A program made the translations under genes and the position numbers. From an uncultured Chlorobiaceae bacterium (GTDB lineage Bacteria > Bacteroidota > Chlorobiia > Chlorobiales > Chlorobiaceae), in the NCBI GenBank assembly GCA_903940125.1, contig CAJAJL010000059.1, positions 1 to 58,934 of the forward strand: a stretch of 58,934 bases of DNA, given 5' to 3'. This document shows, piece by piece, positions 1-11,066 of this stretch. Numbering within the stretch: position 1 is the stretch's first letter; the number at the start of each line of letters is the position of its first letter. The notes under the pieces are model-generated. The model worked only from the letters and a program-made list of their open reading frames with translations. It did not search any database and was not told the DNA's origin.

Positions 1-121
1 GTCTATGCTCATGGGGTGAAATCAGGAAGTGATGGCTGAAGTTTTTGGTTCTAAACTCAGAACCTATCTATCTTTAATATAACACTTTACAGTCGATTTT
101 CCAATACATTATGCAGCTTTG

Positions 122-1768
122 TTAGTCCGACAGGCTGCTAGCAGTTAAGACGGACTCTGAACTATGTGCCACCACAGGCACTGAACAGGATTCCGAGCCG
201 GCTTCTCCGCGCCGCAAGCGTTCGACAGCCTCATATCCGCCCATCGACGGCATGTTCAGGTCCATGATAACAAGATCGTACCACCTGACGGCCAACAGTT
301 TCAGCGCTTCACGTCCGTCAACCGCCTCGTCGATCTCTATCTGCAGAGGAGCGAGATACTTTTTCAGGATGATGCGGTAAAGAGCTTCATCGTCGACGAT
401 CAGCAATCGCTTTCCCTGAAAATGAGACTGCCCCATGGCAATAACGCTTTCTGTATAGATTTTCATCTCTGATGCTGAAATAACCGGGAATGAAAGCTTG
501 AACTCCGTGTACTCCCCTTCAACCGATTCACAACTGATGTCTCCCCCGAACGCCGTCATGACCCGTTTGCAATACGCCAAACCGAGGCCTGTGCCTGCGG
601 TCTTGCCTTTGGTATAATAACTGTCAAAAATATGCGGAAGAGTCTCACTTGATATCCCTGGACCCGAATCACGAAAACGAAGATAATTGTAAAATTCACC
701 CTTTTCCAGACAAACCGTTATTTTACTATGAGGATAGTTTTTGAAATAGAACAGCGCGTTCTTCAGCAAGTTGAAGAGCACAAAAAAAAATAGGGTTTCA
801 TTGACATGAAAGATGAACGTGTCTTTTATAACAAGATGAACGCGTCTCCGATCTTGCTCTAATTCATAGCCCCATTCATCAAATGCGTTGCGCGTAAGGC
901 TTGCTGCAGACAAATAGGCAAAATTTTCCGATCCGATGGGCTGTTCACGAACCTCACTTAGAACCATATCAATCACCTGAGCACCTCGTTTCACCGCCAT
1001 CTGACCATGCTGCACTCGTTCCAAAAGACTATCAAGCTTCTCTTTATCGATAGGGTTATCAAACTTAACCGGGTTAACCTGCAGCAGAAGATTCTGAATG
1101 CTGTAAAAGCAGTGATGAATCTGACCAAGAGGGTTACGCATTTCATGGGCGATGCTGCCAGCAAGAGATTGCAGTACTGAATTTCGCTCCTGTGCCAGTG
1201 CACCCTTTTTATTAGTGGAATTGACCAATAACCCAAGCAAAATAGCGACAGGTATTGATAAGAAGTATTCTATAATTTTCGTTGTAATCAACAGATGGGT
1301 TCCGGTACTAACAACAAATCCTGCATAAGCAATAAAAATACCTGAAATCAACAGAATCGCCAAGAGAAAATAATTGGTAATAAAGATGATGAAAACTAAC
1401 AGCATAACTGTTTCCGCGACCAACCATAATCCGGAAAAATTGTTCATTAACAACAGAAACGTAAAAATAACAGGAAAGGTAAAAGTCAACCAGAGATACC
1501 AATACAGCATCAGCAAAGGCCTGAACTTATCGGAATAACGCAAATGAAAAAGAATTGGAACAAACGAAATCGCCGAGCCAAAACGCAGATCAAAAGACTC
1601 ATAAGGCTGGGGAAACACGAATGTACAAAGCAAGTAATACAGTGGGTGCCCCCATAACCCTATATACCTGATGTAATTTATCGTTAGTTCGTTACGTTCA
1701 TAATCTTTCTGAAGAAAATGCGTTGCCCGTTTCAGGAAAGATTGTTTGATAAAATAACCGGGGGCCAT
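122..1768 (-). CDS. CqsS-like membrane hybrid sensor histidine kinase (truncated receiver)
   Basis: Hybrid sensor kinase of 548 aa. Residues about 28-190 form a run of roughly six membrane segments. The stretch with FPQPYES and LLMNNFSGLW closely resembles my memory of the N-terminal ligand-binding region of Vibrio CqsS, the receptor for the alpha-hydroxyketone signal CAI-1 (FPQPYEN, LLMNNWS). A HisKA domain follows with IAHEMRNPLG (phospho-His about 208), then a HATPase with GPGIS and GTGLGLAYCK. A receiver starts near residue 454 with LLIVDDE and phospho-acceptor Asp about 503 (IMDLNMP). The receiver stops about 12 residues after its fourth strand, so the conserved Lys strand and last helix are missing. 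It lies 13 nt downstream of the methyltransferase fusion and is probably co-transcribed with it. No clear Shine-Dalgarno precedes the ATG. Kinase identity is secure; the ligand class is inferred. Confidence 0.85.
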   Translation of the reverse strand: MAPGYFIKQSFLKRATHFLQKDYERNELTINYIRYIGLWGHPLYYLLCTFVFPQPYESFDLRFGSAISFVPILFHLRYSDKFRPLLMLYWYLWLTFTFPVIFTFLLLMNNFSGLWLVAETVMLLVFIIFITNYFLLAILLISGIFIAYAGFVVSTGTHLLITTKIIEYFLSIPVAILLGLLVNSTNKKGALAQERNSVLQSLAGSIAHEMRNPLGQIHHCFYSIQNLLLQVNPVKFDNPIDKEKLDSLLERVQHGQMAVKRGAQVIDMVLSEVREQPIGSENFAYLSAASLTRNAFDEWGYELEQDRRRVHLVIKDTFIFHVNETLFFFVLFNLLKNALFYFKNYPHSKITVCLEKGEFYNYLRFRDSGPGISSETLPHIFDSYYTKGKTAGTGLGLAYCKRVMTAFGGDISCESVEGEYTEFKLSFPVISASEMKIYTESVIAMGQSHFQGKRLLIVDDEALYRIILKKYLAPLQIEIDEAVDGREALKLLAVRWYDLVIMDLNMPSMGGYEAVERLRRGEAGSESCSVPVVAHSSESVLTASSLSD

Positions 1769-1781
1769 ATGTGGTATAATA

Positions 1782-3176
1782 TTAGCTTTTCAGCACACAG
1801 AAACTGTAATGGTTATAAACATCTTCTTCGATATCGAGAAGTACTCCAGAACTGATATTCTCTTTTATGACAAGATCATACTTATCGGCAAGAACACTGA
1901 TATCATTATATCCATTAATAAAAGGTTCACCCATTTTTCGGATATTGTTAATAAATCCTTCAGCTTCACGAATACCGGTACGGATATCGACAAGATCTTT
2001 AGAAACATAATCAAGCCAAATACAGGAGTCCTGATTCATGATCTTTCTGATCGAACTGAAAATAATGTCGATATTCACTTCACGGAAATACATCGAACCA
2101 CCTTCCCAGACAAAAAAGGTCGGCAATTCGGGTTTGAAATCCGATAGCTCAATTAATGCCTGGTCAATCGACTGAATTTCCAGGTCTATTGCAACATTAT
2201 GGATCGAATTGTTTTTACTATAATCAAAAATCCTTTGTCGTTCATGCAGCATTACCGGTAAATCGAGATCGAATATAACGGCATTTGCAAGATTCAGTCG
2301 CCAGAAACGGCTATCATATCCTGCCCCGATATTGACCACATTGAATTTCATCTTTCCAAAAGCAAACTGCTGTATACTCTCGTCAAGATGCTGTGTTCGG
2401 ACTGCTATCATATTCTGCAGTTGCGGAGTAGCGACACTAAACCTTCTGGCAAGGGTAATGCCATGCTTTCCGGCCAGCATAAATGCGTAAGGATCGTCAA
2501 ACCGCCTCTGTTCATACGGTTTTTCTTGCTCCAGCGCACGCAATCCGACAATCAACTTTGCCGTCGTTTTTGTCTTGTGTTCGTAGAGTAGATTGATCTT
2601 TTCAGCTTCAAAGGCATTTCGTTTCAGACCGTTGATATCCTGCGCCCAGTAGGTAAAATCCGCCACAGCAACAAGTTTCTCACCATTGAACATCCTGACT
2701 GGAATGGTCAACACCACCTTATTGCTTTTGGCAAAACGTTTTGCAAGTCCATCCCATCTTTCTTTTTCAATCTCGGCCTTGCACGTCAGGTCATGACAAC
2801 TAGGGCTAAGCCACTTGATCGAAGCCTTCGCCCCCCACATATAACCGGCGTTTTCATCAACTGAAGGCCAGAAACCGATAATTGGCACTCGGTGAAACAA
2901 CGTGGTCAGGGCAAGACCGCCGGTATATTCTGCAGCAAGTAACATCAGGGGACCTTGATGAGCGATATACTGATTCGATGAATTTGGAATAAGCGGGAGC
3001 TCAGTTTCAACATAGCCACGTTCAACAACCGTAATTTTCCAATCAATAAAACCAAGAGCCGGAACCGACTCGTGAAAGGATTGCGTAAGAACTTCAAGGT
3101 TGAACCGATCCTTGCGGTCCTCCTCCCAAGCATCGATTGAATTCAAAAGAAAAGAAGTGCTGAAGTTAAGATCCAT
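1782..3176 (-). CDS. DUF4442-like hotdog domain fused to LCM-type SAM methyltransferase
   Basis: Two-domain protein of 464 aa. Residues about 25-185 look like a hotdog-fold DUF4442/PaaI-type domain, which in other proteins binds acyl thioesters (segment IAHQGPLMLLAAEYTGG near 71-87). Residues about 215-464 match the leucine carboxyl methyltransferase family: the glycine-rich SAM motif VNIGAGYDSR near 281-290, then an acidic DLDLP at 303-307, and FVWEGGSMYF further on. It is the first gene of a two-gene minus-strand operon, 13 nt before the CqsS-like kinase, so it may make or modify the ligand of that sensor. The substrate cannot be read from the sequence. The domain assignment is from remembered family features; the operon and fusion are directly visible. 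Confidence 0.75.
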   Translation of the reverse strand: MDLNFSTSFLLNSIDAWEEDRKDRFNLEVLTQSFHESVPALGFIDWKITVVERGYVETELPLIPNSSNQYIAHQGPLMLLAAEYTGGLALTTLFHRVPIIGFWPSVDENAGYMWGAKASIKWLSPSCHDLTCKAEIEKERWDGLAKRFAKSNKVVLTIPVRMFNGEKLVAVADFTYWAQDINGLKRNAFEAEKINLLYEHKTKTTAKLIVGLRALEQEKPYEQRRFDDPYAFMLAGKHGITLARRFSVATPQLQNMIAVRTQHLDESIQQFAFGKMKFNVVNIGAGYDSRFWRLNLANAVIFDLDLPVMLHERQRIFDYSKNNSIHNVAIDLEIQSIDQALIELSDFKPELPTFFVWEGGSMYFREVNIDIIFSSIRKIMNQDSCIWLDYVSKDLVDIRTGIREAEGFINNIRKMGEPFINGYNDISVLADKYDLVIKENISSGVLLDIEEDVYNHYSFCVLKS

Positions 3177-3532: not shown

Positions 3533-3853
3533 TCAGGAGTATGTCTCGCTCTTTCGTTTATAGAACGTAACACCGACGCGTTGGATGTGATCGATGATAT
3601 CGGGATCGCTGATATTGGCGAAAATGGACAGGTCAATGGTGTATGGCAGAAAAAGGTTGTCAAGGTCATCGATAATTTTATTCAGCGTACTTAAAGTCAG
3701 TGCTTCACCATAGAGTGTGAGGTCGATATCTGAACCATTCTTGTAGTTGCCTGCAGCACGGGAGCCAAAGAGAGTGGCCTGTTCCACCTGTGGATAAAGT
3801 GACAGAAGAGTGCTGATTTTTTCGATAGTGGTATCCTGCAACCCGTATTTCAT
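3533..3853 (-). CDS. Minimal nucleotidyltransferase (MNT / MntA-like)
   Basis: Small nucleotidyltransferase of 106 aa with the family signature GSRAAGNYKNGSDIDL (GS-x10-D-x-D), whose two Asp residues bind metal at the active site. In studied HepT-MntA pairs the MNT protein is the antitoxin and AMPylates the HEPN toxin; in other pairs of this architecture the role is unknown. It overlaps the upstream HEPN-type gene by 4 nt (ATGA), so the two are translationally coupled. Assignment as nucleotidyltransferase is firm; antitoxin function is inferred. Confidence 0.85.
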   Translation of the reverse strand: MKYGLQDTTIEKISTLLSLYPQVEQATLFGSRAAGNYKNGSDIDLTLYGEALTLSTLNKIIDDLDNLFLPYTIDLSIFANISDPDIIDHIQRVGVTFYKRKSETYS

Positions 3854-4281
3854 TGGCCTTCCTCCTGTTTCAGTATATCCAGCTTTGCTTTGAGTGCCCT
3901 GAACTCTGAAAAGTAATCGGAGTGAATAGCAGAAACTATGTTGTCGGCAGTGGTGTCGTCATAGGTGTGAGATGTTAAATTACGGCTTAGAATCATGTCC
4001 ATCCATATATCACCGTTCCCAATTAAACCGGTTTTAAAGGCGGCTCGTGTAGTATCTTTGGAGCCATATAAATTTTGAACTCCACGGTTTTCAAGAAAAT
4101 CTTTCAACGTCTTCCATGCCAGTTCATGCGTGTATTCAAATGCCTGAATACATCCTTGCTCTTCAAGCTTTGAGAGTGGGCGCTCCTGCGCAAGCTTTTC
4201 AGCTTCTTCCAATTGGGAAAAAGCTTTTTTGAAGTTGTTAAAACGCTGAATCCAACGAATGTCTGCAGGCATGGGACACAT
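3850..4281 (-). CDS. HEPN / HI0074-family nucleotidyltransferase partner (HepT-like)
   Basis: All-helical protein of 143 aa resembling the HI0074-type nucleotidyltransferase substrate-binding family, related to HEPN domains. The typical segment FEYTHELAWKTLKDFLE lies near residues 50-65. Near residue 101 it has RNLTSHTY, a complete R-x4-H-x-Y motif, which in HepT toxins forms the RNase active site and whose Tyr is AMPylated by MntA. The overlapping MNT gene follows immediately. The canonical motif makes an active toxin-antitoxin pair plausible, although many HI0074 pairs have no shown toxicity. The start could be the first ATG or the Met three codons later. Confidence 0.8.
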   Translation of the reverse strand: MCPMPADIRWIQRFNNFKKAFSQLEEAEKLAQERPLSKLEEQGCIQAFEYTHELAWKTLKDFLENRGVQNLYGSKDTTRAAFKTGLIGNGDIWMDMILSRNLTSHTYDDTTADNIVSAIHSDYFSEFRALKAKLDILKQEEGQ

Positions 4282-7242: not shown

Positions 7243-7788
7243 CTATTTTTGAGACTTGTTTCGGCTCTGCTTGAGCTCTTTCAAATCATTGAGCATATCA
7301 CCACCATGCGGCGAAAGAAAATTAATAAATATCCAATGATTGCCGCTTTGCGCCACCTCGGCAATAACATTTGGTTCCGGGTTCCTTTTGCCTCCGGAAA
7401 CTCCATATAGCTCTACCAGGTAATGCTGGCCTTGCTTCTTTACGCCCCCAACTTCATATCGATCTTCAAGTTCCTGGCTGCATAAAAAGGGATCCCAATC
7501 CAAGCCGACAATCTCTTCGGGGTGCTTTGATGATGCCTCGAAATCCTCTTTCAGTGCAGCGATGAGCCTGGCGCTGAACATATTCGGTTTTTCTTTTACA
7601 GCCCTTTCATCAGGAGCGAGCTTGCCGTTCTTGTGTGAGACAATACCATACCAATCGTAAAACTTCTGTACAAATTTCCCTACGGAATCTTGCGGGACAA
7701 GAACTTGTGCGATGCCCAGAGAGTACCAGACAAAGAAGCCTGCCAGCAGCATCGACAATAAAAGCAATCTTTTCCTATAGACGATCAT
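7243..7788 (-). CDS. Exported DUF3828-like protein
   Basis: A 181-aa protein from the ATG at 7788, which has GGAGG six bases upstream and overlaps the stop of the preceding kinase gene as ATGA. The N-terminus (IVYRKRLLLLSMLLAGFF) is a signal peptide or membrane anchor. The rest resembles DUF3828: a helical start (VQKFYDWYGIV), the segment EEIVGLDWDPFLCSQE, and a C-terminal strand region ending HWIFINFLSPHGGDM. The overlap implies translational coupling with the hybrid kinase, so it may be an envelope component of the same signalling unit. Function unknown. Confidence 0.7.
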   Translation of the reverse strand: MIVYRKRLLLLSMLLAGFFVWYSLGIAQVLVPQDSVGKFVQKFYDWYGIVSHKNGKLAPDERAVKEKPNMFSARLIAALKEDFEASSKHPEEIVGLDWDPFLCSQELEDRYEVGGVKKQGQHYLVELYGVSGGKRNPEPNVIAEVAQSGNHWIFINFLSPHGGDMLNDLKELKQSRNKSQK

Positions 7789-10700
7789 GACATACCTCCA
7801 TGGGGGAGAAGCTCCCTCATCATTTCGAGCAACTCGCTTTTTTTGATGGGTTTGGTGATAAATCTGTCGCATCCAGCTTGCCTGGCTTTGTCTCTCTCCT
7901 CCATGGAGGTGAATGCTGTCTGGGCAATTACCGGCAGGTTGGGACGGAGCTGTTTGATCTGCCGCGTTGCATCAACACCGTTTAACAGCGGCATTTTAAT
8001 GTCCATAAGAACAATATTGATCTCCGAGTGATGCTGAACAAGCTCCACCGCTTCCCTGCCGTTTTCGGCATAAAGGATGTTGATGTTTCCCCCTTTCAGG
8101 CTGTTTTTCAGAAAAAGTGTACTCATTTCGTCATCTTCGGCGATAAGAATACAGAGTGCAGGGATAAGTACCGGGTTATAGGGCAGTGTGAATAAAAAGG
8201 TACTTCCCTCGCCTTCTACCGATTCAACTCGGATTGCACCGCCAAGCATGTCAACGTATGCTTTGGTAATACTCAAGCCGAGCCCTGCCCCTTCGTAGCC
8301 TCTGGTCAAGGTGTTGTCTACCTGCTGGAAGCGATCAAAAACTTTCTTCTGCATCTCAGCGGGAATACCCATGCCTGAATCGATACAATAAAACTCAAGA
8401 ATTTCATTTTTCCGGGTATATCCGAAATCAATCCCTCCATCCCGGGTAAATTTCAGGGCATTCTTGACCAGGTTTGTCAGAATTTGGTTCAGCTTTCCAC
8501 TATCGGTGTTAATGGTGCTTTCACTGTCGGAAAGCGCTGTAGTACAAGTCAAGCGCAACCCTTTTGATTCTGCTTCATGCTTGAAAAAGGCATGAATGTG
8601 ATGCATAAGTTCATTGAGCGGTGTTTCGGTTATCTTTACTTTGGTCTCTTCGGCATCAATACGGGAAATATCGATAAGATCATTAATGAGATCGAGCATA
8701 CGTTGGCCGCTTTTTTGAATGAGATCGATATACTGGTTCATCTCCTCACCGGAGAGATCAGACTCTTTCAGCAGTTCTGAAAAACCAAGAATACCATTCA
8801 TAGGTGTGCGTATTTCATGGCTGATATTTGCCAGAAACGCTGATTTAACTCGATCGCTCTCTTCTGCTTTTTCTTTGGACGCAATCAGTTGATCCAGCAA
8901 TTTTTTCTGTTCGGTGATATTTTTGCTGGTTCCGATAATTCTGTAAATATGGCCACTCTCATTGCGAACAGGGTTAAGGGTCGTTTCCCAATAGCTTTGT
9001 TGACCCTGGAACGGGATAGACTCTTCGTACTGTATTGTCTTGCCCTCCTGAAGACAGCGTTCATAATTATGGATAATCGCTAAGGCAACGTCATGATCAA
9101 AAAACTCTTCGGGCGTTTTTCCGGTTATCTCCTCATTTTTGAAACAAGTAAGTTTTTCGTGGTTGGGGTTAATGCCCTTGAATCGGAAGCTTCCATCGGG
9201 GCAAACATCAACAACAAAAATAGAGTGATTGACCTCTTCGTAGATACTTGCGAGAAATTGCTCACTTTCCTGCAGCTCCTTCTCATATTGCTTACGAAGG
9301 ATTTCCTTATGTTTACGCTCAGTAACATCATGAATCATGCCGATCATCCCTGCAGATTTATTATCCTGATAATATTGAAAGTGAACTTCACCGTCAAAGA
9401 GAGCACCACTTTTTCTGCAAAACTTGAATTCGACTATCCGGGTATGGAAATGCTGTAATAAGGTTTCCTGGAAAAGAGCTTGGGCCATGGAAATATCCTC
9501 TTCTACCAGATATTCGGTAAAAGTGTGGCCGGTCATCTCATGGGGAAGATAGCCGAAAAGATGTTCCGCTGCTGGTGATACATAGGTTAATGATCCGTTT
9601 GAGTCGGTCACAAAAACCATCTCAGCCATCTGTTCAGTAATGGAACGGAATTTTCTTTCGCTTGACTGCAATGCCTGTTCGGCATGTTTGCGTTCTGTGA
9701 TATCGTAAATAATATCGTATACAAGCTCTTTGTTTCGTACTTCGATTTTCTGTGCGAATATTTCAACATTACGCACAGAACCATCGGCACGGCGATGAAA
9801 AAAGAAAAGGTGCTGTTGGTTTAGCGATTCCCATTTCCATTTATTCATCTCATGCGTGATTTCTTCAGGAGTAAGAATATTGATCTGCTTGATATTCATC
9901 TGCTTCAATACCTCAATCGGCCATCCGTAAAAATCGGCTGCAGACTGATTGGCATCGACAATAGTGCCGGTTGCAGGATCAAGAATAATCATGATGGCTA
10001 TATTCTCCACAAAAAACATCCTGAAGCGCTCTTCACTCTCCCTCAGTGCATCATCTTTCTTTTGTTGTTCAGTGATATCAATAACGACACCTGCATACCT
10101 GACTATCGTTCCTGAGGCATCTTTAAATGGACTGCCTTTGGACATAAGCCAGCGATGTTTTCCATCAGTATCGGGAATTCTCCATCTGCAACTATATTCG
10201 CCACCGGTGCTCAAGGCCTCCTGAACAGCCAATTTGACTATTTCCCTGTCCTCCGGAATAATGGTATTGATCCAGGCTTCATTGGTTGGCTTAATACTCT
10301 TTGGATCAAGACCATAAAGCTGCCACATTTTATCTGACCAGGTGTTGGTATTGGTGCTTATATCATATTCCCAAAGACCGGCACCTGTGGCAGAAATAAT
10401 AAGATGCATTCGTTCGTTGCTGGCATGCAGCTCTTCATCGGCCAGTTCGTGAGCTTTACGAGATCGGAGCATAGAGATACCGAACGCAAGGTTTTCTGCA
10501 AGTGCGGTGAGGAGCTGGATCTCTTCCGTATCAAAAGCGTTCAGATAGGTCAAATAAATTGTTATTGCTCCAAACACTGTCGTACCTGTTTTGAGGGGTA
10601 AACTAAGCGAAGAAGCATAGCCGCGCAACAGAGCCTCTTTCCGCCAAGGTTCGAATTGAGGGTCGGAGAGCATATTGCGGATGATAGCTGGTTGGCCGGT

Positions 10701-11066
10701 GCGGATGGCGGTTCCAGTCGGGCCACGACCACGCTCAACATCTGCCCAGGTGATATGCAGGGTATCCAGATATCCCTCTTCGAAGCCAGCCTGGGCAACC
10801 GGACGGACAGTTTTTTCTTTATCATGTTCTGCATAACCGACCCACGCCATCCGGGAACCGCCCACTTCGACAACAATCCGACAAATGGCATTAAGTAATT
10901 CCAGTTCATCAACGGCATGAATCAGCGCATGATTGCAATTGTTGATGGCCTTAAGTACACGAAAACTATCCAGGCTGCCCGCTTGATGAATCCCGGGTTG
11001 CTCACCTGCATGAGAGCTCAACTCTGATGGAGTGTCGGGGTTATTGGGTTGCTGCTTTTTTACCAT
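7785..11066 (-). CDS. GAF / multi-PAS hybrid sensor histidine kinase-response regulator
   Basis: Hybrid kinase of 1093 aa with no membrane segment, so probably cytoplasmic. Order: GAF about 50-200; PAS/PAC about 215-335, 345-465, 475-590 and 605-725 (each ending in a D-I/V-TE-type motif such as VIDITEQQKK or DITERKH); HisKA with NISHEIRTPMNG (His about 750); HATPase with NLVKNALKFT, DSGMGIP and GAGLGLSI; and a complete C-terminal receiver about 970-1090 with AEDDE, phospho-Asp in LMDIKMP (about 1022) and the conserved Lys in FITKP. The repeated PAS domains suggest redox, light or small-molecule sensing, but no cofactor-binding residues could be assigned. It overlaps the DUF3828-like gene by 4 nt. 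No separate output regulator is adjacent. Confidence 0.92.
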   Translation of the reverse strand: MVKKQQPNNPDTPSELSSHAGEQPGIHQAGSLDSFRVLKAINNCNHALIHAVDELELLNAICRIVVEVGGSRMAWVGYAEHDKEKTVRPVAQAGFEEGYLDTLHITWADVERGRGPTGTAIRTGQPAIIRNMLSDPQFEPWRKEALLRGYASSLSLPLKTGTTVFGAITIYLTYLNAFDTEEIQLLTALAENLAFGISMLRSRKAHELADEELHASNERMHLIISATGAGLWEYDISTNTNTWSDKMWQLYGLDPKSIKPTNEAWINTIIPEDREIVKLAVQEALSTGGEYSCRWRIPDTDGKHRWLMSKGSPFKDASGTIVRYAGVVIDITEQQKKDDALRESEERFRMFFVENIAIMIILDPATGTIVDANQSAADFYGWPIEVLKQMNIKQINILTPEEITHEMNKWKWESLNQQHLFFFHRRADGSVRNVEIFAQKIEVRNKELVYDIIYDITERKHAEQALQSSERKFRSITEQMAEMVFVTDSNGSLTYVSPAAEHLFGYLPHEMTGHTFTEYLVEEDISMAQALFQETLLQHFHTRIVEFKFCRKSGALFDGEVHFQYYQDNKSAGMIGMIHDVTERKHKEILRKQYEKELQESEQFLASIYEEVNHSIFVVDVCPDGSFRFKGINPNHEKLTCFKNEEITGKTPEEFFDHDVALAIIHNYERCLQEGKTIQYEESIPFQGQQSYWETTLNPVRNESGHIYRIIGTSKNITEQKKLLDQLIASKEKAEESDRVKSAFLANISHEIRTPMNGILGFSELLKESDLSGEEMNQYIDLIQKSGQRMLDLINDLIDISRIDAEETKVKITETPLNELMHHIHAFFKHEAESKGLRLTCTTALSDSESTINTDSGKLNQILTNLVKNALKFTRDGGIDFGYTRKNEILEFYCIDSGMGIPAEMQKKVFDRFQQVDNTLTRGYEGAGLGLSITKAYVDMLGGAIRVESVEGEGSTFLFTLPYNPVLIPALCILIAEDDEMSTLFLKNSLKGGNINILYAENGREAVELVQHHSEINIVLMDIKMPLLNGVDATRQIKQLRPNLPVIAQTAFTSMEERDKARQAGCDRFITKPIKKSELLEMMRELLPHGGMS

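Follow-up and report, generated by a model that had tools for sequence, protein, structure and literature searches.

The stretch of DNA analysed here (the window) comprises the first 58,934 bases of contig CAJAJL010000059.1 (our contig C59) of GCA_903940125.1, the assembly of an uncultured Chlorobiaceae bacterium. At the extreme start of this contig, on the minus strand, lies a gene for a protein of 464 amino acids (aa) in which a hotdog domain is fused to a methyltransferase domain of the LCM type, predicted to use S-adenosylmethionine (SAM), followed by a gene of 548 aa for a sensor kinase related to CqsS. Judged by its conservation in related genomes, this enzyme–receptor module is real and conserved, and it is quite likely that the two proteins share one ligand pathway. 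Our preferred reading, to which we give about an even chance (roughly 0.5), is that the fusion makes a signal for which the kinase is the receptor, so that the pair would be a modified relative of CqsA/CqsS with a fatty acyl methyl ester as its signal.

A conserved pair of fusion enzyme and CqsS-like kinase

Both open reading frames of the original prediction were recovered, with the kinase gene only 13 nucleotides (nt) downstream of the fusion gene (Table 1), and the kinase indeed contains the two motifs FPQPYES and LLMNNFSG. These motif words reflect homology, since the sensor region alone (kinase residues 1-221, searched by tblastn) matched a Vibrio campbellii kinase with an E value of 9e-18 over 89% of the query; a chance occurrence of the motifs is ruled out by this match, and the likeness to CqsS extends beyond the motif words as had been supposed. 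The V. campbellii kinase can itself be identified as CqsS, because a CqsA gene lies alongside and it reads FPQPYEN and LLMNNWSN. The core of the window kinase matched the Vibrio LuxN model (NF041945) with an E value of 2e-79, and its intact orthologs are about 813-890 aa long, with further receiver and histidine phosphotransfer (HPt) domains. A hydropathy scan of the kinase did not resolve the helix boundaries.

Full-length fusions (14 copies in 13 genomes) were confined to the genus of the window among 394 genomes of the phylum. The kinase lies directly downstream of 13 of these 14 copies, all in Chlorobium-group genomes, and the 14th (genome G319) runs off its 3.2-kb contig. Two Alphaproteobacteria (G394 and G395) have fusions that are 54% identical, again with the kinase directly downstream in both and with gaps of 3 to 11 nt; over the seven relatives measured, from two phyla, the gap is 3-14 nt. 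The named fusion-bearing relatives are Chlorobiaceae metagenome-assembled genomes and these two Alphaproteobacteria. In alphaproteobacterium G430, a more distantly related fusion sits at a contig start, with its neighbour off the contig, and a search of plasmids and phages found no full-length relative, only the methyltransferase half. The genes flanking the pair vary between loci. The neighbourhood of the two genes is therefore conserved, as the original prediction required, and chance adjacency is ruled out by the pairing in two phyla together with the sensor tree described below. Simple scans for a promoter and a terminator gave hits not above those in shuffled sequence.

Receptor lineage and ligand-reading residues

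Co-inheritance was followed in a sensor-only tree of 56 sensor-domain sequences, because the kinase core appears to have been homogenised between neighbouring kinases of G394, two of which contain near-identical core stretches. In this tree, the 12 fusion-linked sensors, drawn from two phyla, group together in a single clade (support 99/95) that 100% of the bootstrap trees recover, the other alphaproteobacterial paralogs group elsewhere, and the window sensor falls outside the clade of CqsA-linked receptors. When sensor and kinase core were used together, the alphaproteobacterial and Chlorobium fusion-linked kinases were not joined. The fusion-linked sensors are included in a larger clade with 23 of the sampled kinases (support 100/97), none of which is encoded beside cqsA. 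At an alphaproteobacterial locus (L047, 3997-10013), two different CqsS-like kinases flank the fusion; their cores are near-identical in stretches while their sensors differ, which suggests an exchange between the two.

In Vibrio cholerae CqsS, Trp104 and Ser107 recognise the hydroxyketone's C3 group and F162 recognises its head group (PMC3376566, PMC5007282), and applying V. campbellii numbering (+5) recovered every reported residue. Ser occupies the Ser107 position in 23/23 CqsA-linked receptors but in 0/23 kinases of the non-CqsA clade, and it is this clade that has Glu at the following position (23/23, against 0/23 of the CqsA-linked receptors). At the F162 position, 23/23 CqsA-linked receptors and 0/12 fusion-linked sensors have Phe. 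All of these counts come from related sequences and hence are not independent tests. Trp104 is conserved in both sensor clades. In the window kinase it is kept as W115, with Ala118 and Glu119 at the Ser107 position and the next one, and Val174 at the F162 position. From these residues, the receptor has probably changed its ligand. The original prediction, that the fusion makes or alters a new ligand for the adjacent sensor, is partly supported, since the co-inheritance of enzyme and sensor and the loss of the hydroxyketone-reading Ser both argue that the ligand is a different one and that the fusion makes or alters it; the chemistry of this ligand we infer.

Other members of the 23-kinase clade stand beside other genes. 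In four of them, from four green sulfur bacterial genomes, the operon consists of an AfsA-domain (hotdog) gene, a flavin amine-oxidase-type gene and the CqsS-like kinase (L071 3058-7453, L073 3756-8154, L074 4510-8905 and L075 3570-7953), a candidate butyrolactone-like signal module. On a plasmid of Paraburkholderia caribensis (L055 3894-7535), a hybrid kinase of the clade begins 27 nt downstream of the gene for a KASIII-type ketosynthase, possibly as another lipid-signal pair. Single members are found beside a phytanoyl-CoA dioxygenase-type gene and beside a fatty-acyl-reductase-type gene (NAD_binding_4) (L135 4208-8986, L146 4676-8590), and three, including a third CqsS relative of the present genome on contig C21, have no obvious partner. 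A further CqsS-clade kinase, of about 860-895 aa and with Ser107 kept, follows an O6-methylguanine-DNA methyltransferase-like gene in 5/5 genomes examined, with no cqsA nearby (L066 5494-8707, L067, L068, L069 and L070). A literature search, largely of open papers, returned no paper in which a CqsS relative is paired with AfsA or with a methyltransferase.

The fusion enzyme, its proposed product and the alternatives

The C-terminal half of the fusion matched the Pfam family LCM (E 5.7e-25, 88.7 bits against a cut-off of 22.3) and TIGR00027 (108.1 bits against a cut-off of 93.55), and in the AlphaFold model of the fusion (confidence score, pLDDT, 75.8) it adopts a methyltransferase fold with Z scores of 25.4 to mycobacterial ML2640c and 23.6 to human LCMT1. 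Arg260, invariant in 14 fusion homologs, is aligned to Arg73 of human LCMT1, a residue in contact with the substrate carboxylate. Fold, SAM motif and this Arg are shared with the LCM/TIGR00027 methyltransferases (LCMT1, PPM1, mycobacterial ML2640c and Rv0731c), whereas the N-terminal hotdog domain is not, and the substrate of the fusion is likely a small lipid rather than a protein C-terminus. Against the CqsA family NF005526, of pyridoxal phosphate (PLP)-dependent acyl-CoA transferases, the fusion gave no match, its only matches being to LCM/TIGR00027 and, weakly, to hotdog models; the enzyme is thus unlike CqsA, as first proposed.

The N-terminal half has a hotdog fold by structure comparison with VIA-align, with Z scores of 16.1 to MadB (8ayv), 15.2 to 1t82 and 14.8 to PA5026 (1sh8), the last two being putative thioesterases; the matches span about 140-150 residues at a root-mean-square deviation of 2.4-2.9. 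By profile, it stays under the Pfam gathering cut-offs (YiiD_C 21.6 against 27 bits, DUF4442 15.2 against 25), and these weak matches recur in 14/14 and 13/14 fusion homologs, respectively. Of the two families first suggested for the fusion, LCM therefore holds over its cut-off and DUF4442 does not. In the 14-sequence alignment, Asn68 is invariant and position 83 is Glu or Asp, 15 residues apart, which in sequence is the Asn to Asp/Glu spacing of PaaI- and THEM2-type thioesterases.

MadA and MadB, the malonyl-acyl carrier protein (ACP) decarboxylases, and the DUF4442 proteins have this fold in common with the fusion, but lack the acid at 83 and the attached methyltransferase. The key residue of the Mad enzymes is an Asn on the same loop, and their catalytic loop contains Asn43, Asn45 and Phe51 (PMC8666670). 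Asn68 of the fusion is spaced compatibly with the catalytic Asn45, while the near-invariant Asn43 and the invariant Phe51 of MadB are replaced by Ser66 and Gln74, as assigned by spacing. An hhalign comparison of the hotdog half with Escherichia coli MadA was not significant, and the sole match of this half in a profile search of PDB sequences, a coiled-coil design, was rejected as spurious. The modelled folds of the two halves fit the use of an acyl thioester and SAM.

In the mechanism that we propose, the hotdog domain would bind an acyl-CoA or acyl-ACP and free the acid, and the LCM domain would then methylate its carboxylate with SAM. The product, a fatty acyl methyl ester that might also be hydroxylated, would exit the cell and be read by the adjacent membrane sensor, and the signal would pass via the receivers and HPt domain of the kinase to a regulator. 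This circuit and an ordinary CqsA/CqsS system would operate in parallel inside the same cells. The closest working precedent for the proposed methyl ester is Ralstonia PhcB/PhcS, in which one operon likewise contains the genes of a SAM methyltransferase and a sensor histidine kinase; the enzyme makes methyl 3-hydroxy fatty acids (methyl 3-hydroxypalmitate or 3-hydroxymyristate) that the kinase reads, the two systems being compared here by published gene arrangement. PhcB has not been reported as a hotdog fusion, and the Phc system has separate response regulators, PhcR and PhcQ, unlike the pair in the window.

The closest relatives of the receptor belong to alpha-hydroxyketone quorum sensing, namely CqsA/CqsS of Vibrio and LqsA/LqsS of Legionella, also reported in Chlorobium and Prosthecochloris. 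With these systems, the window pair shares a homologous sensor, the FPQxYE and LMNxxS motifs, Trp104, a LuxN-type core and an enzyme gene adjoining the receptor gene. It differs in that the enzyme is a hotdog–LCM methyltransferase and not the PLP-dependent CqsA, and in that the receptor, without Ser107 and F162 and with an invariant Glu, belongs to a clade that contains none of the CqsA-linked receptors. A hotdog-type lipid-signal enzyme is also known in AfsA, the A-factor synthase, and an AfsA-domain gene precedes a sister receptor subclade in the same genus; the AfsA model PF03756 gave no match in the window fusion.

Several points weigh against a methyl-ester signal made and read by this pair. 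Many TIGR00027 methyltransferases have no assigned substrate. The hotdog half scores below the profile cut-offs given above, and its active-site loop (residues 66-73) is modelled at a pLDDT below 50. The window's own kinase is disrupted, as described in the next section. Finally, CqsA occurs in 13/13 fusion-bearing genomes of the genus, compared with 25/65 overall (hypergeometric p ~3e-7, shared ancestry ignored). The present genome is one example: cqsA is absent from the window, as was noted originally, but contig C79 carries a CqsA-family gene (611 bits against a cut-off of 428 for NF005526; 1.7e-112 to the solved V. cholerae CqsA) that is divergent from the gene of a full-length CqsS of 884 aa. 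Such CqsA/CqsS pairs in green sulfur bacteria have already been described (PMC10158934, PMC5289986).

This co-occurrence favours an alternative in which the fusion tailors the CqsA hydroxyketone or its precursor and the modified molecule is read by the adjacent kinase as an additional receptor, as do the CqsA/CqsS pair that is also present in alphaproteobacterium G394 and the Trp104 common to both sensor clades. We nevertheless consider it unlikely, since fusion and CqsA are neighbours in no locus seen, LCM domains normally methylate carboxylates and CAI-1 has none, and Ser107 and F162 have both been lost from the receptor; in addition, the second alphaproteobacterium, G395, a fragmented draft, has no strong CqsA match. 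In the other main alternative, the fusion would be a metabolic or envelope-lipid enzyme that the kinase controls by sensing membrane or lipid state, with no diffusible signal involved. In fatty acid synthesis, Mad-type hotdog domains do act on acyl carrier protein (PMC8666670), and the kinase orthologs have phosphorelay domains of their own; this explanation is also unlikely when one considers that the characterised members of the sensor's family read diffusible lipid signals and that related clade members are paired with other signal-type enzymes such as AfsA. A role of the fusion in quorum quenching or signal turnover, in which it would inactivate or mask a signal that the adjacent kinase senses, is more doubtful still: a thioesterase-like, methylating protein could cap a carboxyl-bearing signal, and the tight operon coupling to the receptor would permit feedback, but the pair has no further conserved neighbour whose product would synthesise such a signal. 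That the neighbourhood is fortuitous and the kinase an ordinary hydroxyketone receptor, as its homology to CqsS might suggest, is very improbable given the adjacency in two phyla, the co-segregating sensor clade and the loss of Ser107.

Disruption of the kinase gene and wider meaning

The kinase gene of the window, which had been assumed to be whole, is broken by an insertion sequence (IS)-like element together with a deletion, and its end at 548 aa is unnatural. DNA identity to the closest intact kinase ortholog (87%) ends at window position 126, and the kinase stop codon sits within TAGCAGCCTGTCGGACTAAC, the terminal inverted repeat of the inserted element. The inverted mate of this repeat was located near the end of contig C96, adjoining an HPt remnant (72% identity), while about 600 nt of the kinase gene, comprising the last part of receiver 1 together with receiver 2, could not be located in the genome. 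A natural short form of the kinase is ruled out by the stop codon in the repeat and the HPt remnant on C96.

The repeat pattern occurs near four contig ends and the reversed control pattern nowhere, and the sequence adjoining the repeat, at the element's other end, is common to the ends of C96 and C45. A repeat near several contig ends and the sequence shared by C96 and C45 are what would be expected of a repeated IS-like element that breaks the assembly. A DNA search with window positions 1-140 returned no second copy, the repeat having emerged only by the inverted-repeat pattern, and the body of the element was not seen in the assembly. Less probably, the break is an assembly error of the draft genome. 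The parts of the element seen, with inverted repeat TAGCAGYCTGTCGGRCTAAC, lie at window 1-140, C96 10710-10849, C45 1-189 and C78 1-139. Because the receptor gene is broken, the signal may be made in this strain and yet not be sensed via this receptor.

Table 1. Features of the fusion–kinase locus in the window
Feature	Position	Strand	Basis or remark
Outer end of inserted IS-like element	1..120		No homology to kinase; contig breaks off
Terminal inverted repeat of inserted element	121..140	-	Pattern near ends of four contigs (C59, C96, C45, C78)
CqsS-like hybrid kinase gene, surviving 5' part, 548 aa	122..1768	-	Intact ortholog 813 aa; stop codon inside inserted element
First receiver domain, incomplete, aa 456-536	161..403	-	Response_reg E 1.2e-16; second receiver and HPt absent here
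Kinase ATP-binding domain HATPase_c, aa 325-429	482..796	-	Profile match, E 1.5e-19
CqsS-homologous membrane sensor domain, aa ~1-195	1184..1768	-	tblastn to V. campbellii CqsS (9e-18); alignment; tree
Ala118-Glu119, equivalent of CqsS Ser107 and next residue	1412..1417	-	Alignment counts; Ser107 role from PMC3376566
Intergenic gap between fusion and kinase, 13 nt	1769..1781	-	3-14 nt in relatives
Hotdog–methyltransferase fusion gene, 464 aa	1782..3176	-	Open reading frame; LCM 5.7e-25; TIGR00027 over cut-off; conserved with adjacent kinase; candidate signal synthase or modifier
LCM-type SAM methyltransferase domain, aa ~201-463	1788..2576	-	Profile matches, alignment, fold; NIGAGYDSR SAM motif; Arg260
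Hotdog domain, aa ~25-180	2637..3104	-	AlphaFold model, VIA-align Z scores; 14-sequence alignment; invariant Asn68, acid at 83

Two small adjacent genes at window 3533-4281 look by eye like a nucleotidyltransferase/HEPN-type pair, and a large multi-domain hybrid sensor kinase of 1093 aa, PAS-like by eye, is encoded near the pair at 7785-11066.

For the receptor family as a whole, we tentatively put forward, at somewhat less than even odds, that a lineage sister to the CqsS-type receptors has moved off hydroxyketones, its modules each combining a receptor with another acyl-lipid enzyme, among them the fusion, the AfsA-type hotdog protein plus flavin oxidase, and KASIII. Each of these would make its own undescribed lipid autoinducer, a single green sulfur bacterium would run several parallel channels, and the invariant Glu would be the mark of the class. 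The fusion–kinase pair is small and self-contained, and hence directly testable. If our reading is true, it would add to quorum sensing a new type of signal synthase, a fused thioesterase-like/carboxyl-methyltransferase, together with a new receptor class, and would mean that one receptor fold has been re-used by swapping the neighbouring enzyme and a few membrane-helix residues. Green sulfur bacteria, in which only a CAI-1-type system has been reported, would then have at least two more candidate signalling channels.

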